Source: Streptosporangiaceae bacterium
GTDB lineage: Bacteria > Actinomycetota > Actinomycetes > Streptosporangiales > Streptosporangiaceae
Length of the DNA stretch: 35,208 nucleotides
Assembly: GCA_030038495.1 (NCBI GenBank)
Contig: JASHOV010000547.1
Location: 1-35,208 of the forward strand
Direction of reading: 5' to 3'
In this document: piece by piece, positions 4,447 through 32,497 of the stretch
Position numbering within the stretch: position 1 is the stretch's first letter
How the letters are laid out: every line of letters starts with the position of its first letter
Made by a program: the position numbers and the translations under genes
The notes under the pieces: model-generated
What the model saw: only the letters and a program-made list of their open reading frames with translations
Databases searched by the model: none
What the model was told of the DNA's origin: nothing

Positions 4447-6429
4447 CTAGGCGTCAGGTCCGCCGAATCCGCCGGTGCGGGTCCGGCTGGTCATGGCCCT
4501 GAAGCTGGGGTCAGTGCTGCCGGCTGGTTCAGGCACCACGCCGAGGCTCTCGTCGTTCTTGTCCGAGTCCACCAGGACCCCCGAGGCCGTCTGCATCTTT
4601 GCCTGGGAGATCATCTCGCCGACGGCATATATCCGCCCGGCCGAGGATCCTCCGGCGGTCATGATCGCGATCAGGCTCGTCGCCCACTCGGTCAGGTACG
4701 CTCCGCCAAGAGCCGGGTCCAGGTGAGCCAGGCTCAGCAGCACGTCGGCTGAGGCGCTGGCCGCCATCAGCGGCTTCGGAACCCGGCCCCGCTTCGACTT
4801 GAGCGCCGGGCCCACCGGCTGGACGTCATCGGGATCCGGGATCACGACAATCAGCTCTGCGCCGTCAACGCTGACCGCGTTGACGCCGGGCTCGGTTGCC
4901 CTCAGCAGCCGGCCAACCGGAGTTCCCGGGTACAGGTCAGCCAGGACCACGTGCAGGCCCTGCTGCGCGCAGGCGATGGCCAGGCCCGTCAGGCAGATCG
5001 CCGGCACCCGCGCGTCGTCGACCGGTACAACGGCGAGTGTCGCCGGGAAGCCAGTGCTCTGCCGGACCGCGCTGCGCAGGTGCTCGACTACTCGCTCCAC
5101 ATTGGTGTTCCTGGCGAGAGCGAGCCCGCGCCGGCCGGGAAGCCACCTGCTCACCGGTATCCTCCCGACGCTCAGCCGGACCGGGATGCCGAGAACGCGC
5201 GCTATGTCGTCGCGACGGCGGAGCCGGTCGGTCACCAGCGCTGCAATGATGACGATCCCCACGCCCAGTGCCAGGCCACCGACCAGGCCCGCGCCCACGT
5301 ACAGCGCTATGGCCTTTTTCGCCGACGACGCGACCGGCACCGCCCGGTTCAGCGGCTTGCTTTCCCCGATCACCTGCGCGTTGTTCGCCTGATTGCTCGC
5401 CTCGTCGGCGGCAACGGTCTGGTTCAGGGTGTTCAGCGCGGTGGTCGCCTGGCTGTGCTGGCTCTCCAGACCGTGCAGTTCGGCGGTGTTCGCGGGTGTG
5501 GCGGGGAGCGCCGACTGGGTGGCAATCTGCTTGCGGAGCGCGTTGACCGTCTGCTGGGCCTGGGCGATCTCCTGGTTGTAGGAGGCGGCGATGAGCTTTT
5601 CCTGACTGTCCAGGAGGTTTGCCTGGAACCGGAGAAAGGCTGTGGCCAGGGCATTCGCCTCGGCGACGGCCTTGGCGGTGGACGACGCCTTCGCGGTGAT
5701 CTGCAGCACCGAGTCGGTGATGATCGTGACCGTGTAGTGGCTCATCAGGGCCGACGGTGGCTCGTGGAGTTTCAGCAGCTTCACTGCCTCCGTGGCGACG
5801 GGGAGGCTCTCCGCATAGGCCTGATCGTTCAGGATCGCCGTCCCGGCGGTCACGGTGGGCGGGTTAGCGAGGTACAGGACGGTAGATGCCTCCTGCGCAG
5901 GAGGGCGCTCCTTGAGGTATCCGAACCCTGCCAACAGCCCGATCAGCGCGAGGGTGAGCCAGACCCTGGCGCGTCTGCGCAGTGCGGCCCTGATGTACCC
6001 GAGGCTGGTGAGGCCCACGCTGGAATCGAGGCGGTCCTCGCTCAGAGCGAAGTCGTCGCTGGCCCAGTCGTCGTCGGCCGCCCATTCCCGTTCCGGCCGA
6101 CGGGCACGGACCGGCACCGGCAGCACGATTGTGCTGTCCGAGACGTCGTCCTCGGCCTCCGAGCCGCCTGGCCTCTGAGCCGGGGCCCGTGCGTCCTCAC
6201 GGCCATCCCGCCCGTCTGGCCCGTCCGTAGCGTTCTGGCCGGCTAGCCCCCGGTGACGACCGTTTCCTGGTCGGTCCGGGGCGGCTCCCCGCTCAGCCGG
6301 GCCTGCCTTCTCCGCCGGGACACTCACCGGCTGGTCGGGGCTGTCTTGATCCGTACTGCTCACTGCTTGTCCTGCGCTATTCACATTGTGAGCACGATCG
6401 TGAATTCGTGCATACTCCCCGTGACTCAC
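4447..6429 (-). CDS. Wzz/Wzc-like polysaccharide co-polymerase (chain-length determinant) with degenerate C-terminal nucleotide-binding-like domain
   Basis: Two TM segments flanking a coiled-coil extracytoplasmic region; C-terminal MinD/BY-kinase-like segment (LAVVPVDDARVPAICLTGLAIACAQQGLHVVLADLYPG) with no GKT/S P-loop. GTGA overlap with the upstream gene. Confidence 0.75.
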   Translation of the reverse strand: MSHGEYARIHDRAHNVNSAGQAVSSTDQDSPDQPVSVPAEKAGPAERGAAPDRPGNGRHRGLAGQNATDGPDGRDGREDARAPAQRPGGSEAEDDVSDSTIVLPVPVRARRPEREWAADDDWASDDFALSEDRLDSSVGLTSLGYIRAALRRRARVWLTLALIGLLAGFGYLKERPPAQEASTVLYLANPPTVTAGTAILNDQAYAESLPVATEAVKLLKLHEPPSALMSHYTVTIITDSVLQITAKASSTAKAVAEANALATAFLRFQANLLDSQEKLIAASYNQEIAQAQQTVNALRKQIATQSALPATPANTAELHGLESQHSQATTALNTLNQTVAADEASNQANNAQVIGESKPLNRAVPVASSAKKAIALYVGAGLVGGLALGVGIVIIAALVTDRLRRRDDIARVLGIPVRLSVGRIPVSRWLPGRRGLALARNTNVERVVEHLRSAVRQSTGFPATLAVVPVDDARVPAICLTGLAIACAQQGLHVVLADLYPGTPVGRLLRATEPGVNAVSVDGAELIVVIPDPDDVQPVGPALKSKRGRVPKPLMAASASADVLLSLAHLDPALGGAYLTEWATSLIAIMTAGGSSAGRIYAVGEMISQAKMQTASGVLVDSDKNDESLGVVPEPAGSTDPSFRAMTSRTRTGGFGGPDA

Positions 6430-7715
6430 AGTCGGCTCTCCGTTGTTGAACTGGTCAGACGGGTCGGCTTCATTCGGTGCACGGTCCGTCCGATGTGCGG
6501 GATACGGCCGGTCGTCGGGTCGTTCGCGTCCGGATCGGCAACCAGGATTCCCTCGATCTCGCGGTCGGCGGCGGCGGCGTTTGCCGCTACCCGGGCGAGC
6601 TGATCGGCCGTTGTGCCGCCTGCGGAAACCGACAGCACGGCCACGCTCGTCTCAATGGTGGTGTCCAGTTGCGGTGTCCTGCCGTCAACAACCGCGACCA
6701 CTACCGTGAGGCGGGCGTTGGGGAGCCGCGTCATCTGGCCGCCATCGGCTACCGTAATCCGAAGCCTGCCCGACCGGGCGGAGGACTCCGCCTTGCCGGC
6801 GCACGCCGCACGCAGCGTCGCCGTGGCGCTGGCATCCTGCTGTGGTCCGATCACCAGCACCGTGGGCACGCCCAGCGATGCGGCGAAGATCGCCAGTTGC
6901 GGTCCCAGGGCCAGCGCACCTTTGTCGGAGGACAGCGAGACGACGGTAACGGAGTGCCCGCCGACGGGCGGCGCGGAGGTAGCATCGGCCAGCCCGAGAT
7001 GATGCAGGACGCTTCGCAGCCGCCAGGCATCGGCCGCGCTCGGCCGGTAATCCTCCAGCAGCTTGCTCCACCGCGCGACGTTAGCCGGGTGGGCGGCCCC
7101 GACCGACGCGAGGACAGGCACGCCGATCGCGTCGGCAATCTCGTCTCGCCGACGGAGCCGCTTGTCGCTGCGGCTGAGGGCGAGCGCGCCGACGATGCCG
7201 AGGAACGCGGCTACAGCGAGCCCCAGCAGCGCCGTCAGGATTGTGGACACAGCTCGTGACCGTCCGGTGGCGCTCGTCGCCGGAGCGATGATCTTTGCCT
7301 GGGTTTTCAGCGCAACTTTGTTGGAACTGACGTAAGCGACGTAACTAGCCGCCACGGCATTCGCTGCCCGTTCGGCACCGGTCGCCGTCTTTCCCTGGGC
7401 ACTGATCGACAGGATTCCCGGAGCCAGGCTGCTCACGCTGATCAGCTTCCGCAGGCCGAGCAGCGACATGCGCGGGCCTACGCTGCGCAGCGCACCGGCC
7501 AGGACCTCCTCGCTGCCTGCCACGACCACCTGCGTCGCAGTGCCGGAGGAGGCGGACGACAGCTGAACCAGCGCGCTACTGGACAGCAGCGGAGGATTAG
7601 CGATCGTATACGCACCGCCCGCAATCAGACCGATCATGGCAACAACGCCGACAACGATCCAGTGCCGCTGCACGATTTGCACGGCCCTTTTCAGGTCCAG
7701 CGGCTGTTCGGTCAC
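6426..7715 (-). CDS. Wzz-like co-polymerase with degenerate BY-kinase-like domain
   Basis: MTEQPLDLKRAVQIVQRHWIVVGVVAMIGLIAGGAYTIANPP N-terminal Wzz-like segment, second TM, C-terminal VTVVSLSSDKGALALGPQLAIFAASLGVPTVLVIG lacking a Walker A motif. Confidence 0.75.
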   Translation of the reverse strand: MTEQPLDLKRAVQIVQRHWIVVGVVAMIGLIAGGAYTIANPPLLSSSALVQLSSASSGTATQVVVAGSEEVLAGALRSVGPRMSLLGLRKLISVSSLAPGILSISAQGKTATGAERAANAVAASYVAYVSSNKVALKTQAKIIAPATSATGRSRAVSTILTALLGLAVAAFLGIVGALALSRSDKRLRRRDEIADAIGVPVLASVGAAHPANVARWSKLLEDYRPSAADAWRLRSVLHHLGLADATSAPPVGGHSVTVVSLSSDKGALALGPQLAIFAASLGVPTVLVIGPQQDASATATLRAACAGKAESSARSGRLRITVADGGQMTRLPNARLTVVVAVVDGRTPQLDTTIETSVAVLSVSAGGTTADQLARVAANAAAADREIEGILVADPDANDPTTGRIPHIGRTVHRMKPTRLTSSTTESRL

Positions 7716-7765: not shown

Positions 7766-9844
7766 CTATCGACTATGATACAGCAGGTCGATAATCGAGT
7801 GGTTCTTCGATTTGTCCGCGGCAAGGAACTCCAGCCGCGTGCTAAAGGGCTCGTCGGGCGCGGACACACCGGAACCGATGAGGGTAAAGGACGGAGCACG
7901 GCGTCCGAGGCCCGCGGAATACCAGCCGAGTATGGGGTTGGTCGCGCCCCGGTGCAGCGTCCACCTCAGCTTGGGGGGCAGCTCCATGCGGGCCGAGCCT
8001 GGCAGCGTCGCGCCGCGCCACCTGAGCAGGGCATCCGTTCCGTCGAGTTCCGCGTAGACCTCCGGGCCGAGGTGGAACGCGAGGCGGATATCGTGGCTGC
8101 CGCCGAAGATCTCATCGACTATGTCTATGGCGCGTGAGGCCCGGTCAAGGCGGACGCAGCGGCGGTGCCGCGCCGACGGCATGAGGGAGACGTAGCCATC
8201 GTGCTCGGCCGTCCACTCGGCTGCGTCGCCTATGTCCTGCACTTCGAGCTCCTGAGCGCTGGCATGCCTGAGCCAGAGGAACGGGCCGCCCGCGCCTGAC
8301 TGGTCGCGCCCGTCAATCTCGACCGTATTGTGCCCGATCGTCGAGCGGAAGTACGAGCGCCAGTCGGGATCGCCGTGGTAGCAGTAGGTGCCCGGATCGG
8401 CGAGAATATCGACGCCGCCGCATCGGACCTCGACGGACAGCGCGTCCGCGTGCGCGTGCGCGGCGATGCTGAGATAGCCGTGCGGCCCGCCGTCGCAGCG
8501 GCACCAGATCTCCGGGTCCCGGCCCGGAGCGGTCCGCAGCAGGGTCACGCCCGCGTCGGCGAATCGCCAGGGCCTGCACTCGGGCCGCCCTGGCACGGCG
8601 CGGGGCGTCGTCGGCGCGAGGCCCGCGATGATCGTGCTGGCAGCGTCGGGTGCGATGGTCGGCCACCAGTCGAGCCTGCCGAACCTGGCCGCGCCGAGAG
8701 CGAGCAGTGACGGCCAGCGGTTGGCGGCGGGCGGGTCGAGCAGCAGCACGCGGCCCTCGTCGCCATCACCCTGGCGGGGTGGCCGGAGTCGCTCGTCCAG
8801 GAGAGCGGCACCGCTGTCCACCATCGCGCACAGCCGGTCGAGCGTGGCGTCGCTCAGCGGATGGCCAGCCGCCTCCGCCTCGGCGGCCGCCAGCAGCCCG
8901 AGTTCGGTCACAAAGCAGTGGTAGTCGGAGGCGAGCTCCCGGTTTATGCCGGACGCAAACGTATTGCGGATGAGCTCGCGCTCCAGCAGCTTTCCTGATT
9001 CTCTGCGCCAGCTGCCGCTTTGCCGGAACCATGGAAAAGCGCAGCTAGCCACCAGCTGCCCCGCGGCCTCGGCGATAACGTGATTATTAGCCGATGAGCC
9101 GCGGCTTCGGAACGTGGCCAGGTACTGCTGATGCCAGCGAATTTGCCGGACCGCGAGCCCGTTGTCCTCGAACAGCGCGCCGACCTTCGGCCAGTCATCG
9201 AGCAGGCGCCGGATCCAGGCCATGCTGATAAGGCGGATGCCGATCTCGATGCCGCTCGTCCAGTTGACCCCGGACAGGAACGGGTTCTCCCGCCACCACG
9301 AGGTGAGCTGGTCGCTCACCCGGCGGGCATACTCTTCCTCATGGCTCAGGTACCAAGCGGTAGCGAGCAGCGTGAGGTGCTGCAGCCGGGAGATCTCCCA
9401 TATCTGCTTGACGTTGCCCGTCTGGCTCTCTGACCGCTGGTTGATCCGGAACGCGTACCGGCAGTCCGGGGCGCGCAGCCCGGTCACCGGGTCGTGGAAC
9501 CAGTCAGGCTGGGCCATGTCGTCCCGGTCCACGCCGAGCACCGTCCACGCACCGCACAGCAGCTCGCTCGCGGCGGTAAGGACGGCGTTCCTGGCCTCTT
9601 CGGGCACAAGCGCCGGGGTACCGGTCCGCAGCGTAGCCACGAAACGGTGGCCACCCGCGGCCCCGCTCGCCGCCCCGGCCGCCGCCCCGGCCGCCGCGCG
9701 GACGAGGTCAGCGCGGTGCACCTGCTTGCGCGACCACGCCGCCTGCAGCGCCTTGTCGCGCGCCCGCCACAGCAGCTCGGCCGGCGACATCCTGGCGAGC
9801 CGGCGCGCGTACCAGGCCAGCCCCGATGCTTGCGTCGTGGTCAT
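7766..9844 (-). CDS. Heparinase II/III-like (alginate lyase superfamily) protein
   Basis: NNHVIAEAAGQLVASCAFPWF, YHCFVTELGLLAAAEAEAAGHPLSD, HAHADALSVEVRCGGVDILADPGTYCYHGD, RSTIGHNTVEIDGRDQS. ATG at 9844 overlaps the upstream stop (ATGA); the track start at 9952 is probably too long. Confidence 0.88.
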   Translation of the reverse strand: MTTTQASGLAWYARRLARMSPAELLWRARDKALQAAWSRKQVHRADLVRAAAGAAAGAASGAAGGHRFVATLRTGTPALVPEEARNAVLTAASELLCGAWTVLGVDRDDMAQPDWFHDPVTGLRAPDCRYAFRINQRSESQTGNVKQIWEISRLQHLTLLATAWYLSHEEEYARRVSDQLTSWWRENPFLSGVNWTSGIEIGIRLISMAWIRRLLDDWPKVGALFEDNGLAVRQIRWHQQYLATFRSRGSSANNHVIAEAAGQLVASCAFPWFRQSGSWRRESGKLLERELIRNTFASGINRELASDYHCFVTELGLLAAAEAEAAGHPLSDATLDRLCAMVDSGAALLDERLRPPRQGDGDEGRVLLLDPPAANRWPSLLALGAARFGRLDWWPTIAPDAASTIIAGLAPTTPRAVPGRPECRPWRFADAGVTLLRTAPGRDPEIWCRCDGGPHGYLSIAAHAHADALSVEVRCGGVDILADPGTYCYHGDPDWRSYFRSTIGHNTVEIDGRDQSGAGGPFLWLRHASAQELEVQDIGDAAEWTAEHDGYVSLMPSARHRRCVRLDRASRAIDIVDEIFGGSHDIRLAFHLGPEVYAELDGTDALLRWRGATLPGSARMELPPKLRWTLHRGATNPILGWYSAGLGRRAPSFTLIGSGVSAPDEPFSTRLEFLAADKSKNHSIIDLLYHSR

Positions 9845-12039
9845 ATCCGCTCCGGCCCGCCGGTCGTGAGACTGTCCTGCACGGCTATGGTCGCCCGCGT
9901 CGTGGCGATCAGCGATGCCAGCGAGATGGGCATGGGCGCGCCGGTCCGGCACGCCTCGACGAACTGCGCCACCTGACGTCGCTGGCCCTTGTCCTGGCCG
10001 CCGCGCGACCTTGCGGACCGCCTGCGCCGCCCGGTCCAGACGGCCGCCCGCCGGAAGTTATCGAGCCGCGCCGTGCGGCCGCCGCCGGAGGCGTCGAAGG
10101 TTTCCTTCGGATAGCGGGCATTGCCGCCCGTCAGGTAGCTGATCGATGCGGTGGACCGATTCGCGAACCGGATGATCGCCTGCACGTCGCCGTGCTCCGG
10201 GCCGGCCTGGGCGAATACCTCCTCCGGCAGGCTGTCCGTCCACCAGCTGAGCGTGTCGATGAAATGGCCGCCCTCGCCGACGAACCGCGATCCCTCAAGG
10301 TCCTCGTTGCGGTACCAGCTGTCGGACGCCAGCTGGCCGGCGTTCACCAGGTAGCGGGCGGACGACGGGGTTCCGGGCCCGAAGTCCGACTTCAGCTGCG
10401 CCAGCATCGGCGCGAAACGCCGGTTGAAGCCGACCATCAGCCGGTCGTTGCCCGTGCTCGCCACGGTGTCGGCGATCCGCTCGAGCTCGTCGCCGGTCAG
10501 GGCGAGCGGCTTCTCCACGAACACCGCCTTGCCGGTCTGCAGCGCGCGGCAGACCAGGTCGGCGTGGGTGTGGTGGCGGGTCACGATGAAGATGGCGTCC
10601 AGTTGCTCATCGCCGAGCACGGCATCAGCGGCCGTCGATGCGGTCGTGAACCCGAATCGGCGCTGGGCGTTGGCCGCCGACAGCGACCGGGTCGTGGCCA
10701 CGTGCGCCAGCTGCACGCCGTCGAGCCGGGCGAGCTGCGGCAGCAGCATCGATGAGGCGTAGTTGCCCGCTCCTATGAACCCCACGGCCAGCTGCCGCGC
10801 TCCGGCGCCGCGCGGCCCGCGGGCGCTGCCGCCCGTGTTCTGGCTGCCGCCCGTGTTCTGGCTGACCGGCACCTGGCTGCCGGAGGTCGGCGGCGGAGCC
10901 TCGGCCGGCGCCGGGTACTCGAGCAGGACGCCTACCGCCGCCAGCGCGCCCGACGCGAGGCGGTTGTACACCTCGGTCGCGTTCTCCATCGGGAAGACGC
11001 CGGACACGAGCGATTCGACCTCGAGGTCGTTGCGCGCGATCAGGTCGAGGAAGCAGGCGAGGTTGCGGCGCTCGGTCCAGCGGACGTAGCCGGCCGGGTA
11101 GTCGATGCCCTCGAGCTCGTACCGGTCGTCATAGCGACCCGGTCCGTAGGACCGGGAGAAGCGGACGTCGAGCTCCTTGTCGTAATAGGCGTTCCACGGC
11201 AGGTCAAGCCGGGTCTTACCGATATCCACCACGCGGGCGCGGTCTCTGGCCAGCCGGGCGGCAGCCTCGACCGGTCCGTTGGACGACCCGCCGGCCGCCA
11301 GCAGCACGTGGTCGGCACCGCGCCCGTCTGTCATCCCGGCCAGTGCCTGCTGGACTGCCGCCAGCCCGTCCTCCGTCGGTGCCGCGCAGAGCACTGCCCC
11401 GGCCTTCTCGGCCAGCCGGCAGCGCTCCTCGACGACGTCGAGCCCGACGACGCGCACTCCAGCAGCGATCAGCAGCCTGATCGCCAGCTGGCCGACGAGG
11501 CCGAGCCCTATCACGCAGGCGCTGTCGCCCAGCTGGACCTCGGCTCGCCGGACGCCCTGCATGGCGATGGCCCCGACGGTCGCGAATGCCGCATGCTCGG
11601 GCGCGACGCCTGATGGCACCGGAACGCAGAGGTTGACCGGGATCCAGTTGTACTCGGCGTGCAGGGCGTGCTCGTTGCCCGCGGCCGCGACCAGCTGGCC
11701 GACCCTGAACTCCTCCGCTCCCCGGCCCACCTCGACTACGACACCGCAGAGTGAGTAGCCAAGCGGCGTATAGGAATCGAGCCGGTTCATGACCTTCTTG
11801 TAGGTGCCGACCGCGCCCTGCTGCGCCACCGAGTCGAGCACCTTGCGGACCTGGTCAGGACGTGCCCTGGCCTTGCCGACCATGGACATCCTGGCCTCGG
11901 TCAGCTTCATCATCTCGGTGCCGGTCGAGATGAGCGAGAACAGCGATCGCACCAGCACGCCGCCCGGCCTGCAGGAGGGGGCCGGCACGTCCAGGACGGT
12001 CAGCTCGCCGGACTTGTAGTTCTGCGCTATCTGCTTCAT
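9841..12039 (-). CDS. Bi-domain oxidoreductase: zinc-type alcohol dehydrogenase fused to Gfo/Idh/MocA-family oxidoreductase
   Basis: N-terminal MDR domain (GLGLVGQLAIRLLIAAGVRVVGLDV) and C-terminal AVGFIGAGNYASSMLLPQLARL...VEKPLALTGDEL in one ORF. Confidence 0.9.
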   Translation of the reverse strand: MKQIAQNYKSGELTVLDVPAPSCRPGGVLVRSLFSLISTGTEMMKLTEARMSMVGKARARPDQVRKVLDSVAQQGAVGTYKKVMNRLDSYTPLGYSLCGVVVEVGRGAEEFRVGQLVAAAGNEHALHAEYNWIPVNLCVPVPSGVAPEHAAFATVGAIAMQGVRRAEVQLGDSACVIGLGLVGQLAIRLLIAAGVRVVGLDVVEERCRLAEKAGAVLCAAPTEDGLAAVQQALAGMTDGRGADHVLLAAGGSSNGPVEAAARLARDRARVVDIGKTRLDLPWNAYYDKELDVRFSRSYGPGRYDDRYELEGIDYPAGYVRWTERRNLACFLDLIARNDLEVESLVSGVFPMENATEVYNRLASGALAAVGVLLEYPAPAEAPPPTSGSQVPVSQNTGGSQNTGGSARGPRGAGARQLAVGFIGAGNYASSMLLPQLARLDGVQLAHVATTRSLSAANAQRRFGFTTASTAADAVLGDEQLDAIFIVTRHHTHADLVCRALQTGKAVFVEKPLALTGDELERIADTVASTGNDRLMVGFNRRFAPMLAQLKSDFGPGTPSSARYLVNAGQLASDSWYRNEDLEGSRFVGEGGHFIDTLSWWTDSLPEEVFAQAGPEHGDVQAIIRFANRSTASISYLTGGNARYPKETFDASGGGRTARLDNFRRAAVWTGRRRRSARSRGGQDKGQRRQVAQFVEACRTGAPMPISLASLIATTRATIAVQDSLTTGGPERI
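10825..10864. repeat. 18-bp tandem repeat (about 2.2 copies) in the interdomain linker of the bi-domain oxidoreductase
   Basis: gctgccgcccgtgttctg repeated directly at 10825-10842 and 10843-10860, followed by gctg; encodes QNTGGSQNTGGS. Confidence 0.9.
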
Positions 12040-15374: not shown

Positions 15375-15417
15375 GCCGGGGCAGACCCGAGATGCACGGA
15401 AAGGGCGGTTGAGGGAT

Positions 15418-15450
15418 GTATCAGCCCGCAGGCCCTGGTGCTCTAATTGC
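15418..15450 (+). promoter_or_regulatory. Cluster motif site: GTATCAG-N19-TAATTGC upstream of SDR (15497)
   Basis: gtatcagcccgcaggccctggtgctctaattgc on the + strand. Confidence 0.6.
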
Positions 15451-15496
15451 TGGTAATGCTGCTTCTTTGCCCGGCTGGCGGCCGAGGACGTTGGGG

Positions 15497-16582
15497 GTGA
15501 AGGTCTTGAAGGTCCTGGTTGCCGGCGATCGCGGTTATATCGGTGCCGTGCTTGTGCCGCTGCTGCGCTCATCCGGGCACGCGGTCGATGGCCTGGATCT
15601 TGACCTGTACCAGGGCTGTGACCTCGGGCCGATGCCTGCTCACATCGGGCCGCGGCGCCCGCAAGACATCCGGGACGCCGAGCCGGGCGAGCTGACCGGC
15701 TACGACGCGGTGATCTGCCTGGCGGCCCTGTCGAACGACCCGCTCGGTGATCTCAACCCCACGGCGACCTACTCGGTCAACCTGGAGGGGACGCTGCAAC
15801 TGGCACGCGCGGCCAAGCAGGCTGGCGTGCAGCGGTTCCTGTTCGCCTCGTCCTGCAGCCTCTATGGCGCGGCGGGCTCGGCCGCGGTCGCCGAGGACGC
15901 CGACCTGCTGCCGGTCACGCCCTACGGCGAAGCCAAGATCGCGGCCGAGCGCGAGCTGTCCCTGCTGGCCGACGCCAGCTTCAGCCCGACGTACCTGCGC
16001 AACGCCACCGCGTACGGGGCCTCGCCGCGACTGCGCCTGGACATCGTGGTCAACAACCTGACCGCGGTCGCGATGACCACAGGCGAGGTGCGCCTGCAGA
16101 GCGACGGGTCGCCCTGGCGGCCGCTGGTCCACATCGAAGACATAAGCCGGGCCTTCCTGGCCGTGCTCACCGCGCCGCGCGAGCTCATTCACGACGAGGC
16201 CTTCAACGTGGGTCGCCCGACCGACAATGTGCAAATCCGTGATATCGCGGAGCTGGTCCGCGAAGCCGTCGCCGGGTCCAGGATCTCGTTTGCCGATGGC
16301 GCCGGACCGGACCTGCGCAACTACCGGGTGGACTTCTCGAAGCTGACCGACACGTTCCCCGACCTCAAGCTGGCCTGGAGCGTCAGCCAGGGCATTGACG
16401 AGCTCGCGGCCGCCTACGCGGACTACGGGCTTACCTATGACGACTTCGTGTCGTCGCGGTTCGTCCGGCTCCGCCGGATCCGCGAGCTGCTCGCCGCGGG
16501 GGTAGTCGACGAGATGCTGCGACGACAGAGTGACAGCCAGGTCGCGGTACCGGCGTCCGGCATCGCCCGGGGGGCTCGTTGA
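15497..16582 (+). CDS. NAD-dependent epimerase/dehydratase (extended SDR)
   Basis: VLVAGDRGYIGAVLVPLLRSSGHAV Rossmann motif; FASSCSLYG, TPYGEAKIAAE (YxxxK). GTG at 15497 just before the Rossmann motif; the track start at 15416 falls in a promoter-like element. Confidence 0.85.
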   Translation: MKVLKVLVAGDRGYIGAVLVPLLRSSGHAVDGLDLDLYQGCDLGPMPAHIGPRRPQDIRDAEPGELTGYDAVICLAALSNDPLGDLNPTATYSVNLEGTLQLARAAKQAGVQRFLFASSCSLYGAAGSAAVAEDADLLPVTPYGEAKIAAERELSLLADASFSPTYLRNATAYGASPRLRLDIVVNNLTAVAMTTGEVRLQSDGSPWRPLVHIEDISRAFLAVLTAPRELIHDEAFNVGRPTDNVQIRDIAELVREAVAGSRISFADGAGPDLRNYRVDFSKLTDTFPDLKLAWSVSQGIDELAAAYADYGLTYDDFVSSRFVRLRRIRELLAAGVVDEMLRRQSDSQVAVPASGIARGAR

Positions 16583-16625
16583 AGGTCGGTGTCCACAGCC
16601 GACTGTCAACCGATGGACCACAGAA

Positions 16626-19109
16626 GTGGTAGCCGACGCCACTTCCGGGGCAGATCGTCAGTGGCCAGGGACTGCACCCGATGCGGCCGACACGATCGAG
16701 TTCACCAGCGCGGAGCTGACCGGCCCCACGGCCGCGGAGCGGGCCGGGTCGCCGAAGGTAGCCGACGTCGATGTACGCCCTGACCTGAGCGCCGATCCGG
16801 CGCCCGCCGAGCCGGCCAGTCAGCGCAAGCAGCTCTGGCAGGCTCCGCGCAAGATGGCCCGCAGGCTCAGCTGGGGCATCGCCGACCAGGGCATGTCGAG
16901 CCTGACCAACTTCGCCGTCGGGATCTACGTCATCCGCTCGCTCGGGGCGACGGAGTTCGGCGCGTTCAGCATCGCGCTTGTCACCTACGGCTTCGCGCTC
17001 AACGCCTCGCGCGGCCTTTCCACCGACCCGCTGATGGTCAGGTTCAGCGGAGTCGATCTTCCTGTCTGGCGACGTGCGGTCGCCAGCTGCACCGGAACCG
17101 CGCTGACGGTGGGCATCGTCACTGGCTTGTGCGTCCTGGTGGCCGCCGCGTTCGTCGGGGGCACGATAAGGCTCGCGTTCCTGGGGCTCGGGCTTACCCT
17201 GCCAGGACTGCTGCTGCAGGATAGCTGGCGCTACTCGTTTTTCGCGCTCGGGCGGGGCAGCCAGGCGTTCCTGAACGACACTATCTGGGCCGTCGTGCTC
17301 TTCCCGTCCTTGTGGCTGCTGCGCACGACGGGCCACGCGAATATCTTCTGGCTCACCCTGGCCTGGGGTGTCAGCGCCACCGTCGGCGCCGCGGTCGGTC
17401 CGCTGCAGGCCCGCGTCCAGCCGAGAATATCGGGCACCAGGGCCTGGCTGTCCCGTCACCGCGATCTCGGACCGCGCTACCTGGCCGAGGGCGTGTCCAG
17501 CGCCGGGGCCTCGCAGTTCCGTGGCTACGCCATCGCCCTGTTCCTCGGGCTAGCTCCGCTGGGCTACGTGCAGGCCGCGAACACGATCACCGGCCCGGTC
17601 GCGATCCTCTTCCTCGGCATGGCCCTGGTCACTATCCCGGAGGCAGCCAGGGTGCTGCGCCGCTCGCCCCGGCACCTGCCGCTGTTCTGCGTGCTGGTCA
17701 GCGGCGGGCTGTCCGCAGGGGCCCTTGCCTGGGGAGCATTCCTGTACCTGGCGATGCCGAGGGGATTCGGCCAGCTGCTAATCGGCAAGTCCTGGCCGGA
17801 GACCTACCCGCTGGTGCTGCCGCAAGCCCTGTATCTCATCGGCCAGGGCGTGGCGGGCGGCGCGGGCACGGGCATGCACGCGCTGGGGGCGGCCCGGCGG
17901 AGCCTGCGGACCGTGCTGATCGGGTCGAGCCTGCTGGTAATCTGCCCGATCCTCGGCGCGGTTGCGCGCGGCGCCGTGGGAACGGTCGAGGGGATGGCGG
18001 TCGCCGCGTGGCTTGGCGCCGCGATCTCGTGGTGGCAGCTGCGCATCGCGCTGCGGGAGAGGCGCCGGAAGCCCGTCGGCGACGGGCTGTCCGTGACCCA
18101 GGACGGACGCCATCGCAGGCCCACACTGACCGTCATGCCACTGTCCGGTGAGCGCATTGTGGCCAGTGTCGGCATCGGCGAGATCCTCGCCGATGCCCGG
18201 CGCAAAGCGGGATTCACCACCACGCGACTGAGCGAGCGGCTCGGCATACCGGAGACGGTCATCTCGGCGATCGAGCGCAACGACTACTCCGGCTTCGACG
18301 ACGACTATGCCCGGAATCAGATCCGCACCATCGCCAGGGAAGTCGAGACCAATCCGGTGCCGCTGCTCGAGGAGTACGACGCGGACGTAGCCGGGCCCGC
18401 GGCGGCCTATGTCCGCCGCGGGAAGCAGAAACGGAGGGCCACGACCCCTGGCCGACGCGGCGCAACCTGGGCTTCCATCTCGGTCCTCGCTGTGTTGCTC
18501 GCCGCGGCGGGCGCCGTTGCGTTCCAGCACCACGTGTTAACGTCCAGGCGCCCGCCGCCCGCCGCGCATCGACCAGCCAGCGGTGACGTCTCACACCGGC
18601 ATGCCGCGCCCGGGCCGACAGCCCGGCCGTCGGCCAGCGGCAGCCCGTCAGCCGCGGCTCCGGCAGCGCTGCTCCCGGTGAGCGCCGCGGCGTTCGGCCC
18701 GGACGGCGTCGCAGACGGTGACAACCCGCAATCCGCGCCGCTCGCCATCGACGGCAAGCCGTCTACGAGCTGGCATACGAGCTGGTACGCCAGCGCGCAC
18801 TTTGGCGGGCTGAAGACCGGTACGGGCCTGCTTCTCGACATGGGCAGCCCGGTGACGATCACCGGCGTCCGCATCACCCTCGGCCATGCCCGCGGTGCCG
18901 ACCTGGAGGTGCGGGTCGGCGACGCGCCGACACTGGCCAGCTTGCTGCCGGTTGCCCGCGCAACCGGCGCCTCGCGGCTGGTCTGGCTGCCCATCGCCCG
19001 CCCCGAGACCGCCCGCTACCTGCTGCTGTGGTTCACGGCACTGCCCAGGGACTCGGCCGGCACCTTCGAGGTGTTCGTATACGACGTCAGCGTCGTCGGC
19101 CGCCGCTAA
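16626..19109 (+). CDS. Fusion protein: Wzx/MATE-like polysaccharide flippase + RodZ-like HTH (HTH_25) + TM + extracytoplasmic F5/8-type-C-like domain
   Basis: Polytopic N-terminal region (SLTNFAVGIYVIRSLGATEFGAFSIAL...); then IGEILADARRKAGFTTTRLSERLGIPETVISAIERNDYSGFDDDYARNQIRTIAREVETNPVPLLEEYD; TM ASISVLAVLLAAAGAVAF; Pro/Ala/Ser linker; LAIDGKPSTSWHTSWYASAHFGGLKTGTGLLLDMGSPVTITGVRITL. One uninterrupted frame. Start may be 16530 or GTG 16626. Confidence 0.8.
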   Translation: MVADATSGADRQWPGTAPDAADTIEFTSAELTGPTAAERAGSPKVADVDVRPDLSADPAPAEPASQRKQLWQAPRKMARRLSWGIADQGMSSLTNFAVGIYVIRSLGATEFGAFSIALVTYGFALNASRGLSTDPLMVRFSGVDLPVWRRAVASCTGTALTVGIVTGLCVLVAAAFVGGTIRLAFLGLGLTLPGLLLQDSWRYSFFALGRGSQAFLNDTIWAVVLFPSLWLLRTTGHANIFWLTLAWGVSATVGAAVGPLQARVQPRISGTRAWLSRHRDLGPRYLAEGVSSAGASQFRGYAIALFLGLAPLGYVQAANTITGPVAILFLGMALVTIPEAARVLRRSPRHLPLFCVLVSGGLSAGALAWGAFLYLAMPRGFGQLLIGKSWPETYPLVLPQALYLIGQGVAGGAGTGMHALGAARRSLRTVLIGSSLLVICPILGAVARGAVGTVEGMAVAAWLGAAISWWQLRIALRERRRKPVGDGLSVTQDGRHRRPTLTVMPLSGERIVASVGIGEILADARRKAGFTTTRLSERLGIPETVISAIERNDYSGFDDDYARNQIRTIAREVETNPVPLLEEYDADVAGPAAAYVRRGKQKRRATTPGRRGATWASISVLAVLLAAAGAVAFQHHVLTSRRPPPAAHRPASGDVSHRHAAPGPTARPSASGSPSAAAPAALLPVSAAAFGPDGVADGDNPQSAPLAIDGKPSTSWHTSWYASAHFGGLKTGTGLLLDMGSPVTITGVRITLGHARGADLEVRVGDAPTLASLLPVARATGASRLVWLPIARPETARYLLLWFTALPRDSAGTFEVFVYDVSVVGRR

Positions 19110-21826: not shown

Positions 21827-23050
21827 TCACGATGCCGTCTTTCGCTGCACGATCAGCGACGCCGCCACCGACAAATCCAGCAGGTACGTCGAGGCATTCG
21901 TGAACCCGACCTCGGTGAACGAGGCAAGCAGGCAGTAGATGACCAGGAACAGGGCCAGCGCGCGCTGCACGCCCCGCGGCTGGAAGTAGGCACACAGCAG
22001 TAGGAAGAGCAGCACCACGGCGCAGATCACCACCCCGAACAGGCCCTGGGCCTGATACGAGGCGATCCAGTTGCTGTCGATGGGCAGGCCGTCGAAGGAG
22101 TCATTCGACAGGCCGAACCCGAAGATCTCCTGGAACTTGGTGCGCGGGACGGTCAGGACCGCCTCCCAGAAGGCCGTGCGGCCGGTCAGCCCGGCCAGCT
22201 GCTGTGCGTTCTGGCCACGGGCCAGCCAGGAGGTGATGGCGCTGGACAACGTGAAGCCCGCGAGCAGCCCGAGAGCACTCACTGCGGTAAGCGCCTTGCG
22301 TACCCGGGTCTTGGCCACGACCAGGCTCAGCCCGGCGAGCAGCATGCCGGCCAGCATGGCGACGAGCGCGGTCCTGGTGTGCGAGAGGATGAGAATCCCC
22401 AGGGTGACTACCGCGATGGCCAGCGCGCTCTGGGTGCGCCACTCACCGCAGAGCCACAGCACCGCCACCAGCCCGCACGTGACCGCCGCGTAGTGGGCCA
22501 CCTGCGTGGGCGGTATGGGCCAGATCGCGCCGCTCAGCCTGCCGCCTGCCATGGCGTGCCCTGGTGCAACCAGCAGTCCGATCACCACCGTGACCAGCAC
22601 CACAGCCATGGCCTTCAGATGGCAGCGGACCAGCAGCATGTCCCGCCTGCCCCAGTACGGCGTGAGCAGCCACAGCGCGACGAGGAACTCGCCCAGGCGG
22701 AAGGTCCGGTACACGGTGCCGCGCAGATACGCGGCCGTCACGACGGTCACGAGGGCCTCGATGAACAGCAGGCTCATCAGGCACAGGAAGACGTTGGGGC
22801 GGATGACGAGCCGGCGGTTCACGGTGAGCACGAGCATCAGCGCGACCGGCAGGGCACCCTGCGTGATGATCTTCCCGGCCGTCGCGGGAATGTGCAGGAC
22901 GGACTGGCCCGTGTCGAAGGTCAGGACGTTGAGAACCAGCAGTCCCCACGCGAGGCTGACCCGCCTGCGGAGCCAGCGCTCGCGCAGCTCCTCCGCATCC
23001 CGGATCCGCAGACCGTGCCGGGTGCGGACGACGGCGACCGACGAGCTCAT
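21827..23050 (-). CDS. O-antigen ligase/polymerase (Wzy)-like integral membrane protein
   Basis: Multiple hydrophobic segments plus SHTRTALVAMLAGMLLAGLSLV and GLSNDSFDGLPIDSNWIASYQAQGLFGVVICAVVLLFLLLCAYF, typical of Wzy_C/O-antigen ligase proteins. ATG at 23050 preferred over track 23194. Confidence 0.8.
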   Translation of the reverse strand: MSSSVAVVRTRHGLRIRDAEELRERWLRRRVSLAWGLLVLNVLTFDTGQSVLHIPATAGKIITQGALPVALMLVLTVNRRLVIRPNVFLCLMSLLFIEALVTVVTAAYLRGTVYRTFRLGEFLVALWLLTPYWGRRDMLLVRCHLKAMAVVLVTVVIGLLVAPGHAMAGGRLSGAIWPIPPTQVAHYAAVTCGLVAVLWLCGEWRTQSALAIAVVTLGILILSHTRTALVAMLAGMLLAGLSLVVAKTRVRKALTAVSALGLLAGFTLSSAITSWLARGQNAQQLAGLTGRTAFWEAVLTVPRTKFQEIFGFGLSNDSFDGLPIDSNWIASYQAQGLFGVVICAVVLLFLLLCAYFQPRGVQRALALFLVIYCLLASFTEVGFTNASTYLLDLSVAASLIVQRKTAS

Positions 23051-23137
23051 GGGCCGGCGCCAGCTGAACTCGCGTCTGCGCCCTGCACCGTCCCACCTCG
23101 CCTCGTTGCCGGAGCAGTGATCCGGCATACCCCTGCC

Positions 23138-23170
23138 CACATAGGACCGCGGAGTCGGGGGCCGTGATAC
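23138..23170 (-). promoter_or_regulatory. Cluster motif site: GTATCAC-N20-TATGTGG upstream of Wzy-like gene
   Basis: Reverse strand gtatcacggcccccgactccgcggtcctatgtgg. Confidence 0.62.
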
Positions 23171-23200
23171 GCCCAAGGCCGCCCGATACGGCACGAACCT

Positions 23201-27801: not shown

Positions 27802-28791
27802 CTAGGACCAGATATCGCGCTGCACGTTGAGGATGACGCGCGAGCCGAGGCGGTCTAGCTTCACCGGCAGCTCCTGCAGGCCGGCCAGGCTCTCCCGCAC
27901 CGCGCGCTGGCGCTCTACCGGGCACATCGCGAGCAGAAAGCCGCCGCCGCCTGCACCGGTCAGCTTCACGCCGGAGGCACCGGCGTCGAGCGCCCGGCTG
28001 ACCGCCAGGTCAACCTCTTCGCTGGACACTCCGGATGCCAGCTTGCGCTTGACCTCCCAGCTCTCTCGGACCGCCGGTCCGATGGCGTCCACGTCGCCAC
28101 CGCGCAGCCGCTCGGCGCCGAGCCCCGCGAGGTCTCGCAGTATGTCGAGTTGCGGCCGGGTGTCCTCGATGTTCGCGGACTGCTCGGCCAGGATCGAGTT
28201 CGCGCTCCTGGTGATGCCGGTGTAGAAGAGCATGATCTGCTGCTGGAGCGCTCGGCGACCTGCGGCCGAGATCCCCAGCTCATCGGCGACGACGTCATCG
28301 CCGGGGCCGAGCCGGATGTCGCGGATTCCGCCCAGCGCCGCTATGTACTGGTCCTGCTTGCCGATCGGCTTGCCGCACCGGTCGATCTCGATCCAGCACG
28401 CCCGGTCCGCCAGTTCCAGGCCGGACACCTGACGTCCCTGGTAGGCGAACAGCGCGTTCAGCAAGCCGACGGTCACCGCCGACGAGGAACCAAGGCCCGA
28501 GCCCGCGGAGGGTATGTCGGCCAGCGTGGTGATCTCGACGCCGCGCGTGACGCCGGTCATCCACATGGCCTCCCTGACGAGCTCGTGCTCGAGGTCCTCC
28601 ACCCTCGAGACGATCTCCTTCTTGGAGTAATTGACGTAGATGTCGTCATCGAAGCGCTGCTTGACGATGACGTAGACGTACTTATCCAGTGCGCAGTTGA
28701 GGACCCTGCCGCCATGCTCGCGGTAGTAGCCCGGCAGGTCCGTTCCCCCGCCGAGCAGGCCGATGCGCAGCGGCGTCTGGGTGATGATCAT
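27802..28791 (-). CDS. hddA: GHMP-family D-glycero-alpha-D-manno-heptose 7-phosphate kinase-like
   Basis: MIITQTPLRIGLLGGGTDLPGYYREHGGRVLNCALDKYVYV; PSAGSGLGSSSAVTVGLLNAL; GVKLTGAGGGGFLLAMCP. ATG 28791 overlaps the upstream stop (28788). Confidence 0.85.
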   Translation of the reverse strand: MIITQTPLRIGLLGGGTDLPGYYREHGGRVLNCALDKYVYVIVKQRFDDDIYVNYSKKEIVSRVEDLEHELVREAMWMTGVTRGVEITTLADIPSAGSGLGSSSAVTVGLLNALFAYQGRQVSGLELADRACWIEIDRCGKPIGKQDQYIAALGGIRDIRLGPGDDVVADELGISAAGRRALQQQIMLFYTGITRSANSILAEQSANIEDTRPQLDILRDLAGLGAERLRGGDVDAIGPAVRESWEVKRKLASGVSSEEVDLAVSRALDAGASGVKLTGAGGGGFLLAMCPVERQRAVRESLAGLQELPVKLDRLGSRVILNVQRDIWS

Positions 28792-29489
28792 CTCAGGGCC
28801 CGTGCAGGCCGTTCCTTCCTGGCTCGGCGGTAAGCATCGACAGTGCCGACATCGCGGAAGTAGCACTCGACGGGGACCGCGAAGGCCCTGCCGACTAGCT
28901 TGGGCAGCAGGTGGTAGCCGATATCGACCGGAGGCTGGCCGTGGATCTCGTCGATGACGCTCGGCCGGAACGCGTACATACCGGCATTGGTCAGGTCGGA
29001 CACCGGGTCAGCCGGCTTCTCCGTGAAGCCGATCACCCGGCCGGAGTCATCGAGCTCCAGCACGCCGCCGGCGGACGGAGACTCGGAGTGAAAGGCGGTC
29101 AGGGTCGCGATCGCACCCCGCTCTCGGTGCGCTTCGATCAGCGCACGGAGATCGAAGTCGGTGAGGTTGTCGGCATAGCATGCCAGGAAGAATTCCTCGT
29201 TCTCGACCCAGCGCCGGTTGGCCAGCAGAGTGCCCGCGCTGCCGAGCAACTCCGGCTCGAATGCAGTGCGGACCATCGGCGGACGTCCGCGGGCCGCCAG
29301 GTGATCGCGTACCACGTCCGGCAGGTGGTGCAGATTGACCAGGACCTCATCCACGCCCGCCTGGACGAAGGCATCCAGCCAGACATCCAGCAGCGGCCGG
29401 TCATCGATGACAAGCATGCACTTGGGAACCGTGTCGGTGATCGGTCGCAGCCGGGTACCGAGACCGGCGGCCAGCAGGAACGCCTTCAT
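28788..29489 (-). CDS. hddC: Nucleotidyltransferase, heptose-1-phosphate guanylyltransferase (HddC)-like
   Basis: MKAFLLAAGLGTRLRPITDTVPKCMLVIDDRPLLDVWLDAF; GMYAFRPSVIDEI; adjacent to the hddA-like gene. Confidence 0.78.
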   Translation of the reverse strand: MKAFLLAAGLGTRLRPITDTVPKCMLVIDDRPLLDVWLDAFVQAGVDEVLVNLHHLPDVVRDHLAARGRPPMVRTAFEPELLGSAGTLLANRRWVENEEFFLACYADNLTDFDLRALIEAHRERGAIATLTAFHSESPSAGGVLELDDSGRVIGFTEKPADPVSDLTNAGMYAFRPSVIDEIHGQPPVDIGYHLLPKLVGRAFAVPVECYFRDVGTVDAYRRARKERPARALR

Positions 29490-30598
29490 CCTGCGGCCCT
29501 GCGCACCACGCCGAGCGCCCGCATGCGCGCGCTCGCCTCGGCCAGCACGCCGTCCAGCCCGTCCATCCCCTCAAGCCAGGCGGCATACGCGGCGACCGAG
29601 TCGGCCGGCGTCCGGCGCGGCTTCCAGCCCAGGTCGGTCAGCGCGCCGATGTCCGACAGTATGTGGCGCGTATCGCCGAACCGGTACTCGCCGGTGACCA
29701 CAGCCTCGTCCGGCAAGCCGTACTGTCGCCGGACGACGTCGGCGAATTCCCTGGTAGTGACCGCCGTGCCGCCGCCGACGTTGAACACTCGCCCCGCGAC
29801 GCGCTCGTCTTCCAGCATCAGGACGTTGGCGTCCACCACGTCATCGATGTTCACGTAGTCGCGGATCGCTTCCCCGTCCTCGTACAGGGTCGGCGCCACG
29901 CCCTGCAGGTAGCTGAGGCAGAAAATACGGCACGCGCCCGAGTAGGCGTTGTAGACGGACTGCCGCGGGCCCTGGACGATGCTGTAGCGCAGGGCAACCG
30001 TCGGAATGTCGTAGCGCCTGCCAAGATTGACGGCCACCATCTCCTGGCCGTACTTGGACATGCCGTAGGCATTCTGCGGGTTCGCGATTCGCTCCGGCGT
30101 GGCCTGCATGCTGAGCGGGCCGCCGCACTGCGGGCAGGGAATGTCCCACTGGCCGGCGGCAACTGCGCCGGCGGGGCGCATGCCCGGCAGCTGCTCACCG
30201 TCGGCCGGGCAGATATAGAGCCCTTCACCCATCGCTGCCTGGGACGAGGCCACCACAACCCTGCTGACATCCAGGCGCTCGGCCACGATGATCTCGTAGA
30301 GCAGGGCCGTCGACACCACGTTCACGTCGGAGAACCGGGCGAAGTCGGTGAGGTAGTCCTGGTAGGCGGCGAGGTGGTAGACGGCGTCGACCCGGCGGAG
30401 CAGGTTCGTGACCAGATCACGGTTGCGGGTGTCGCCCTGCCAGAACTCGGCACCTGGCGGCAGCTTCGGGGGCTGGCCGCTTCTGTGCACCGGCGCGGTC
30501 AGCGCGTCGAGGATGACGACGTCGTGCCCGAGCTCGAGGAGTCGGTCGCACGTGTGCGACCCGATGAACCCGGCTCCGCCGGTAACCAGGACCCTCAT
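29486..30598 (-). CDS. NAD-dependent epimerase/dehydratase (extended SDR) with Cys-rich insertion
   Basis: MRVLVTGGAGFIGSHTCDRLLELGHDVVILD; NAYGMSKYGQEM (YxxxK); insertion LYICPADGEQLPG...WDIPCPQCGGPL. Confidence 0.88.
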   Translation of the reverse strand: MRVLVTGGAGFIGSHTCDRLLELGHDVVILDALTAPVHRSGQPPKLPPGAEFWQGDTRNRDLVTNLLRRVDAVYHLAAYQDYLTDFARFSDVNVVSTALLYEIIVAERLDVSRVVVASSQAAMGEGLYICPADGEQLPGMRPAGAVAAGQWDIPCPQCGGPLSMQATPERIANPQNAYGMSKYGQEMVAVNLGRRYDIPTVALRYSIVQGPRQSVYNAYSGACRIFCLSYLQGVAPTLYEDGEAIRDYVNIDDVVDANVLMLEDERVAGRVFNVGGGTAVTTREFADVVRRQYGLPDEAVVTGEYRFGDTRHILSDIGALTDLGWKPRRTPADSVAAYAAWLEGMDGLDGVLAEASARMRALGVVRRAAG

Positions 30599-31821
30599 GA
30601 CCGGCGGTGGTTCCTGCGCTCGGCGACTTCGCGGTAGACCTCCACGGTGCCCGCGGCTGTCGCCGCCCAGGTGAACTGGGCCGCCCGCCGGAATCCCAGA
30701 TCTCGCAGCCGGCCAGCGCCGGGCCCGGTGGCCTCGATTATGGCCCGGCCAATCGAGCCAGGCTCATTCGGGTCGCACAGCACCGCGGCTCCGCCTGCGG
30801 TCTCCGGCATCGCGCTGACGTCGGAGGTAACGACCGGGCAGCCGGACGCCATGGCCTCCAGAATCGGCAGCCCGAACGTCTCGTTGAATGACGGGTACAC
30901 GAAGACGTCAGCCGCCTGGTAGAAGCGCACGGTTTCGTGGAGCGGAACGCCGCCCACGAATATGACGTCGGCCGAGATACCGAGCTCAGCCACCAGCGCC
31001 TGAAGCTCCCTGGCGTACTTCTCGTTTCGTCCAGGGCCGACGATCACAAGCTGCCTGTCACCCAGCTGGTCGCGAGTCAGTGCCCATGCCCGGAGCAGCC
31101 CCTCGCAATTCTTGTACCGCCACAGTGACGACAAAAACAGCACGAATGGCTTGGTGACGCCGTAGGACCGCAGGTGCGCTCGCGCGGCGCCGGCGTCACC
31201 CGGCCGGAACAGGTCATGGTCGACCGCCTCGTTGATCAGCTTCAGCTTGGCCGGGTCGACCTCCAGGTGACGCTCGACCTCGGCGCGCAGGCTCTGCGAG
31301 TTGATGATGATCGCATCCGCGACTCGGGCCGAGCGCGGGTAGTTCAGCCGCCGGTACGCGCGGGTCAGCCGCGGGATGGCCTGCGAGGCGGTAAACGCGT
31401 GCATGGTCTTTATGTGCACGACGAGCGACCAGGGAAAGTTGACGACCGGCGCCATCCCGGTGTTGAAGACGTTGATGCGACTGAGCGGCAGCCGCACCGG
31501 CGAGTAGAGGTGCTCGCTCAGCGTGCGCGGCACACGCCTTTCGTTCGACCAGGGATAGGTGATGTAGCGGACGTTCGGCCCGTAACCCTGATGCAGCGGC
31601 CGCGAGCGAGGGCTCACGAGCAGGTGCAGCTCCTCCTCGGGCGAGAGGAGCCTGGCCATCTCGGGGATCATCCGGGTCCAGAACCAGTGGGCACCGGAAG
31701 GATTGTTCGGGTCGTCCTGGAGGAGGTTGATGCCGACGCGCATCGGCGCCGGCCGGGCCCGTCGGGCCAGCGCCGCGGAGCGCTGATCCCGCGGGGCGGC
31801 AGAGGTTCCGGGCGCAGGCAT
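30595..31821 (-). CDS. Glycosyltransferase family 4
   Basis: SSLWRYKNCEGLLRAWALTRDQLGDRQLVIVGPG; YPSFNETFGLPILEAMASGCPVVTSDVSAMPE. The conserved core starts near M at 31743; ATG 31821 closely follows the gmhA-like stop. Confidence 0.88.
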   Translation of the reverse strand: MPAPGTSAAPRDQRSAALARRARPAPMRVGINLLQDDPNNPSGAHWFWTRMIPEMARLLSPEEELHLLVSPRSRPLHQGYGPNVRYITYPWSNERRVPRTLSEHLYSPVRLPLSRINVFNTGMAPVVNFPWSLVVHIKTMHAFTASQAIPRLTRAYRRLNYPRSARVADAIIINSQSLRAEVERHLEVDPAKLKLINEAVDHDLFRPGDAGAARAHLRSYGVTKPFVLFLSSLWRYKNCEGLLRAWALTRDQLGDRQLVIVGPGRNEKYARELQALVAELGISADVIFVGGVPLHETVRFYQAADVFVYPSFNETFGLPILEAMASGCPVVTSDVSAMPETAGGAAVLCDPNEPGSIGRAIIEATGPGAGRLRDLGFRRAAQFTWAATAAGTVEVYREVAERRNHRRS

Positions 31822-31822
31822 G

Positions 31823-32497
31823 TCAGAACACCACCGAGCTGATGGCGTCGGCGGTCATCCGCGACTGGCGGATGTACTGCGCGACCGCGTGCATGATCGC
31901 CTGGTGCAAGTCCTCGATCACCCCGTAGTTCGCGCCATCCACATGGATGGCGACCTCGGCGAGTGCCCTGGCCTCACCGCCGTCGAAGCCGGTCAGCGCG
32001 ATCGTGCGCAGGGCGTTGGCCCTCGCCCACCGCAGCGCGCTGACGATGTTCGGCGAGCGCCCCGACGACGATATGGCGATCAGCACGTCACCCGGCACCG
32101 CGTGCGACTGAAGCTGGTGGGCGAAAACTTCCTCGTACCCATGGTCGTTCGCGATGGCCGTCATCAGCTCGATGTTGGCGCTCAGGCTTACCACCCTCGG
32201 CGCGAGGTCGGTCCTGTCCCTTATGCCCTTGAGGTGGTCGCATTGCAGATGGTTGGCGATCGCAGCCGAGCCGCCGTTCCCGCAGCAGAAGACGCCCGCA
32301 CCGCGGGTATACGCGTCGATCAGGATCGCGGCCGCCTGGTCCAGCGCGGCCGGCTCGATGGAGCTGGCCGCCCTGGCGGTCTCCCGCGCGTATCCGTCGA
32401 AGTACCAGGCAGCACGCGCGTACGGCGTCGCCGGAAATTTCGCCGGGCCGTCGTCACCGGCAGGTGCGACGGCCGGAAGCCGGTCGATGGTAGTCAT
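31823..32497 (-). CDS. gmhA: SIS-domain D-sedoheptulose-7-phosphate isomerase (GmhA)-like
   Basis: GVFCCGNGGSAAIANHLQCDHLKG; LSANIELMTAIANDHGYEEVFAHQL; GDVLIAISSSGRSPNIVSAL. ATG 32497 overlaps the upstream stop (ATGA). Confidence 0.87.
   Translation of the reverse strand: MTTIDRLPAVAPAGDDGPAKFPATPYARAAWYFDGYARETARAASSIEPAALDQAAAILIDAYTRGAGVFCCGNGGSAAIANHLQCDHLKGIRDRTDLAPRVVSLSANIELMTAIANDHGYEEVFAHQLQSHAVPGDVLIAISSSGRSPNIVSALRWARANALRTIALTGFDGGEARALAEVAIHVDGANYGVIEDLHQAIMHAVAQYIRQSRMTADAISSVVF

Follow-up and report, generated by a model that had tools for sequence, protein, structure and literature searches.

An apparent in-frame fusion of a Wzx-type flippase to a RodZ-like helix-turn-helix and a MurJ-type outer domain in an actinobacterial exopolysaccharide cluster

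Why would a flippase encoded in an exopolysaccharide (EPS) cluster end in a RodZ-like helix-turn-helix (HTH) and an outer domain of the MurJ type? Is this one protein, and could such an arrangement link the export of surface sugars to growth of the cell wall? Little is known of how cells position their exopolysaccharide flippases with respect to wall synthesis, and a natural fusion may offer a way into the problem. The window, by which we mean the whole stretch of 35,208 nucleotides analysed here, is contig C105 of a Streptosporangiaceae genome (700 contigs, 88% complete, 6% contaminated; G, C and L numbers below denote genomes, contigs and loci). As the initial annotation had stated, the gene lies in a single open reading frame without interruption (16530-19109, plus strand, 859 aa; residue numbers refer to this ORF). 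Its likely start is the GTG at 16626, which lies 44 bases beyond the position (16582) where the upstream epimerase gene stops; this start suits the N termini seen in homologous flippases and yields a coding sequence of 827 aa (16626-19109, plus strand). This sequence comprises, in order, a Wzx-type flippase, a RodZ-like HTH, a transmembrane (TM) segment, a Pro/Ala/Ser linker and a MurJ-type, putatively extracytoplasmic domain.

Is the N-terminal part indeed a flippase, and of which type? Its core (16851-18068, plus strand) matches the family profile with an E value of 6e-200. No Pfam model matches the flippase part of the window protein, Polysacc_synt included; among eight relatives, a single one matches Polysacc_synt (E 0.0023). 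An AlphaFold (AF2) model of the flippase, built from 38 aligned sequences (pLDDT 86.4, pTM 0.82), retrieved MATE (E 1.8e-8), MurJ (2.2e-8) and WzxE (7.7e-8) in a Foldseek search whose matches ranged overall from 1.8e-8 to 1e-7, and because of these structural matches the label of a polytopic flippase, given earlier from the sequence, holds. We also considered whether the protein is MurJ itself. This was ruled out: the genome's own MurJ lies elsewhere, on contig C175 (PF03023, E 5e-92), and a Pfam search found no PF03023 MurJ domain in the window protein. The flippase is encoded together with Wzz-like, Wzy-like (Wzy_C below cut-off) and glycosyltransferase genes, a Wzx-type setting. It is a Wzx-type protein whose modelled fold is that of the MOP superfamily, and it is predicted to move a lipid-linked repeat unit.

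The window as a whole is an EPS cluster with glycosyltransferases, epimerases, a pyruvyl transferase and methyltransferases, a Wzz-like chain-length protein (6426-7715, minus strand) and a weakly matching Wzy-like polymerase/ligase (21827-23194, minus strand). Directly upstream of the fusion is an NAD-dependent epimerase (15416-16582, plus strand), and the same epimerase-flippase order is found in G002, G003 and G305. Since EPS genes flank the fusion on both sides, the fused module lies inside the cluster. Two further groups of genes were noted in the window. One (27802-33060, minus strand) encodes a GHMP kinase, a nucleotidyltransferase, a SIS isomerase and a HAD phosphatase, and resembles the glycero-manno-heptose pathway. 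The other contains a gene (9841-12039, minus strand) that combines part of a zinc-dependent alcohol dehydrogenase with a GFO/IDH/MocA oxidoreductase in one protein, conserved in relatives and adjoined by a heparinase II/III-like gene.

What follows the flippase? A junction linker (18069-18167, plus strand), inside the equivalent stretch of which the flippases of relatives terminate, leads to the HTH (18168-18380, plus strand). Here HTH_25 (PF13413) matches residues 553-611 with an E value of 1.2e-9, above the curated Pfam cut-off, which bears out the assignment to the RodZ type in the initial annotation. The HTH family profile matches S. aureus YmfM (3fym), T. maritima RodZ in its complex with MreB (2wus) and Chlamydia CT009/RodZ. 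Hydropathy places one hydrophobic segment, residues 643-672, between HTH and tail, in line with the single TM originally proposed (18465-18545, plus strand); a basic stretch (RRGKQKRR...GRR) precedes it. Then come the Pro/Ala/Ser-rich, probably extracytoplasmic linker (18546-18668, plus strand) and the tail, a galactose-binding-like (F5/8-like) domain identified by Pfam and profile comparison (18669-19106, plus strand).

The relation of this tail to MurJ, likewise proposed at the outset, is well supported. Alignment by hhalign with 19 tails of pseudokinase-like proteins gave a probability of 100% and an E value of 3.9e-57, and the tail is 38% identical to that of the genome's own pseudokinase-like protein (a weak, degenerate kinase match), whose gene adjoins murJ. 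In Pfam, F5_F8_type_C (PF00754) matches residues 735-794 (E 5e-4; 20.6 bits, under the curated cut-off of 28.2), and the tail profile weakly matches F5/8 and sialidase-type carbohydrate-binding chains. A model of the HTH-TM-tail part, made without an alignment, reached a pLDDT of 48, too poor for the tail. Pseudokinase-like proteins with such tails are found throughout the order, a scan of 297 genomes from the class found the tail in 247, and in G025, from another family, it terminates a full MurJ-pseudokinase-TM-tail ORF. The tail seems, from the sequences, to be a portable envelope domain beyond MurJ: the outer domain of actinobacterial MurJ would be a part common to MurJ partners, kinases, RodZ-like proteins and an EPS flippase. 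Ser/Thr kinases with a single TM and a MurJ-type tail, their HRD and DFG motifs intact-looking, were observed at L168:2419-4692 (minus strand), L169:2718-4634 and L175:2176-3753 (minus strand); the tail on these kinases suggests an outer sensor or anchor domain with exchangeable cytoplasmic partners.

The initial annotation had further placed the HTH where actinobacterial MurJ carries its pseudokinase. With respect to mycobacterial MurJ the position is indeed the same; in the source genome, however, MurJ and the pseudokinase-TM-tail protein are products of separate adjoining genes, so that the true counterpart there is MurJ together with its partner. The two are fused in other families. Consistently, work on C. 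diphtheriae describes either an MviN with the extension or a gene for a 'protein kinase family protein' downstream of an extension-less MviN (PMC10166564). In mycobacteria an intracellular region of MurJ has been described, and the equivalent cytoplasmic part recruits the regulators FhaA and CwlM (PMC6180346). A MOP flippase equipped with such a tail and a cytoplasmic regulatory domain has thus arisen before, in MurJ. As a separate observation, the MurJ frame of the source genome (L006:6391-8853, minus strand) spans 821 aa and its MurJ domain match begins at residue 318; its start may be called too early.

Where did the two halves come from? Flippase orthologues of about 49-60% identity, devoid of HTH and tail, occur in G001-G004 and, in other genera, in G020, G021 and G305. 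They sit in the same syntenic EPS cluster, and in G002-G004, G020, G021 and G305 they stand alone. The HTH-TM-tail module, in turn, is encoded on its own, as a protein of about 335-577 aa, in G001 (C352), G002 (C512), G004 (C127), G006 (C59), G007 (C469), G008 (C16) and G010 (C64); among the genomes searched, such RodZ-HTH/TM/MurJ-tail proteins occur in this genus and one neighbouring genus only. G003 and G005 have TM-tail-only forms, the former on an EPS contig beside sugar transferase and Era-like GTPase genes, the latter next to a tRNA-synthetase-like gene. The window tail shares 49-56% identity with its standalone counterparts, retains the invariant residues of the family and clusters with the HTH-tail set, apart from the pseudokinase tails (moderate support, 88/77). 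The source genome itself also has the standalone module, split between contigs: C667 ends in the HTH half and C569 begins with the tail half, and their neighbours are the same CaiB-like and LLM-like genes that surround the unbroken gene of G007 and G008. The fusion would therefore use a second copy of the module. As flippase and HTH-TM-tail protein are each standalone in relatives, we read the window as an in-frame fusion of two pre-existing, ready-made proteins.

Is the fusion genuine? Two separate proteins could still be encoded, if a single local assembly error somewhere in a stretch of roughly 100 bases had removed a stop or if translation restarted internally; the locus would then be a two-gene operon for a flippase and an accessory subunit. 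Relatives do keep the two genes apart, the assembly is fragmented into the 700 contigs mentioned above, with its 6% contamination, and third-position GC, high through the junction, dips mildly in the linker. Candidate internal starts exist as well: an in-frame GTG (18159-18161, plus strand), nine bases before the ancestral start and preceded by a weak Shine-Dalgarno-like GGTGAG (18147-18152), from which a separate HTH-TM-tail protein might be made, or an ATG at 18135. Yet no in-frame stop is present, whereas both other frames have stops near the junction. Moreover, translation of the standalone genes begins at the counterpart of Val547 (GTG, TTG or ATG), mostly behind a strong GGAGGTGA site; in the window this codon is GTC (18168-18170, plus strand), which speaks for a joined frame that has existed for some time. 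The same flippase has also acquired C-terminal fusions independently elsewhere (see below). On balance two separate products are rather unlikely, though they deserve real weight, and we regard a genuine fused protein as probable. Chance does not account for the fused frame. An assembly chimera between an EPS contig and a standalone HTH-tail locus was considered too, and rejected: the ancestral HTH start codon is lost, the EPS cluster continues past the fusion in both directions, and the standalone copy is surrounded by different genes.

How widespread is the architecture? The initial annotation had proposed searching other genomes for it and had named an empty result as speaking against its reading; so far, from genus to phylum, none has been found. 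The same fusion was not found in nine genomes of the genus (the source genome outside the window and eight congeners), in 121 genomes of the order searched by HTH-tail, in 299 genomes of the order and 397 of the phylum searched by flippase, or among the best 80 of 460 flippase relatives in named GTDB genomes (Streptosporangiaceae, Trebonia, Amycolatopsis, Streptomyces, Kribbella and Pseudonocardia). A class-level search by tail likewise gave no further flippase-HTH-tail fusion. We thus take the fusion to be lineage-specific and not a family. Other fusions of this flippase do exist. The G001 orthologue (L139:154-2778, minus strand, on C298) continues without a frame break into a polysaccharide pyruvyl transferase, an independent fusion with a frame of 875 aa, and in two other genera flippases of the same family are joined to a Wzz-like segment made up of a TM, a coiled region and a second TM, and look like fusions of flippase and co-polymerase (L147:1504-3945; L148:508-4176, minus strand; L149:1-3705; L150:1456-3714; L151:901-3702). 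Because these partners occur too, the flippase C terminus seems to be a site to which EPS functions have been fused more than once. In addition, a distant flippase frame in the same phylum (L193:1213-3456, G769) continues, as judged by eye, into a look-alike of a WecG/TagA-type glycosyltransferase.

A singleton could also have arisen by recent loss of a stop and be neutral or degenerating; the flippase would then act by itself, with the diverged module as a passenger that has no function at this locus. Retention of a standalone module elsewhere in the genome would fit this, as would the state of the HTH, which has diverged further than any other in its group (44-54% identity, compared with 58-96% between the rest) and in which the conserved CGGDFYARGHIRAIA core is gone. 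Against it, every sub-part of the module is intact, and the tail, at the level of identity to standalone tails given above, has kept the invariant residues; we think a passenger distinctly unlikely.

Could the HTH, then, dock to MreB? The E. coli RodZ HTH is of the XRE type and binds MreB and itself, but does not interact with DNA (PMC6946637); residues F60 and Y64 are required for MreB binding (PMC4047632), and RodZ is one of the members of the Mre interaction network that has been examined in Streptomyces (PMC4416010). In the window HTH the aromatic at the position of F60 is kept (Tyr593), while that of Y64 is replaced by Gln597. Relatives carry Tyr and His at these positions, the second-position His being found in the standalone relatives and in the canonical-looking RodZ of the genome. 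The latter is encoded on contig C464 between FtsK and RimO, and the window gene is not in that neighbourhood. The source genome encodes MreB (C557) as well as an Mbl-like protein (C332). That MreB might link EPS flipping to wall synthesis is plausible because RodZ HTH binds MreB in E. coli, one of the two contact aromatics is kept (Tyr593) and MreB is encoded; the higher divergence of the fused HTH could reflect relaxed constraint and counts somewhat against it. Alternatively, the HTH might bind DNA, making the protein a membrane-bound regulator that reports the state of flippase or ligand to transcription of the EPS cluster. Weaker Pfam matches to HTH_3, HTH_19 and HTH_31, and structure matches that include SinR and restriction-modification C proteins, would agree with this. 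Since HTH_25/RodZ is the best family, and the XRE-type HTH of E. coli RodZ leaves DNA alone, we consider DNA binding highly improbable.

Both ends of MurJ- and Wzx-type MOP flippases are cytoplasmic. The HTH would hence lie in the cytoplasm, with the tail brought to the outside by the extra TM. While the flippase moves its presumed substrate, a lipid-linked repeat unit, outward, the outer domain would sit where the product emerges and probably bind a glycan of wall or polymer. The HTH, tethered to the cytoplasmic C terminus of the flippase, would probably dock to the MreB/RodZ complex or to another HTH, and so place or tune flipping near wall-building sites. In its general form, that a Wzx/Wzy-type EPS repeat-unit flippase captured a ready-made HTH-TM-tail module as a built-in subunit for localisation or regulation, much as the pseudokinase-TM-tail serves MurJ, we give this model about an even chance. 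A stronger version would have the flippase wired into the MreB/RodZ machinery, its HTH docking to MreB filaments, its tail reading the wall and its polymer exported at wall-building sites, and would see the MurJ-type tail as an interchangeable sensor module of the envelope, which MurJ-pseudokinase, RodZ-HTH, flippases and apparently active Ser/Thr kinases have exchanged; this version, taken as a whole, seems unlikely to us. Although no examined relative has the exact fusion, it hints at a possible tie between the export of surface sugars and growth of the wall, and points to RodZ-HTH/TM/MurJ-tail, a separate protein in relatives, as a candidate coupling module.

How does the protein compare with known systems? 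With Wzx flippases such as WzxE it shares the fold and the EPS-cluster setting, but it carries about 345 additional residues at its C terminus. Flippases fused to Wzz-like segments or to pyruvyl transferase are members of the same family that gained an EPS-related C-terminal domain, yet their partners are others, without HTH and without MurJ-type tail. The standalone HTH-TM-tail proteins match it in their HTH, TM, linker and tail, which are arranged alike, but possess their own start codon, lack a flippase and, in G007, G008 and the source genome, which were compared, have the CaiB-like and LLM-like neighbours instead of EPS genes. In common with RodZ, the window protein has HTH_25, a basic juxtamembrane stretch and a single TM; unlike RodZ, it has a MurJ-type tail as its outer part, a flippase in front and Gln for the second MreB-contact aromatic. 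Finally, actinobacterial MurJ/MviN of the M. tuberculosis Rv3910 type consists of MurJ, pseudokinase, TM and extracytoplasmic domain. Both proteins thus combine a MOP flippase, a cytoplasmic domain, a TM and a homologous tail, but in the window the flippase is of the Wzx type, encoded in an EPS cluster and outside PF03023, and its cytoplasmic domain is a RodZ-like HTH in place of a pseudokinase.
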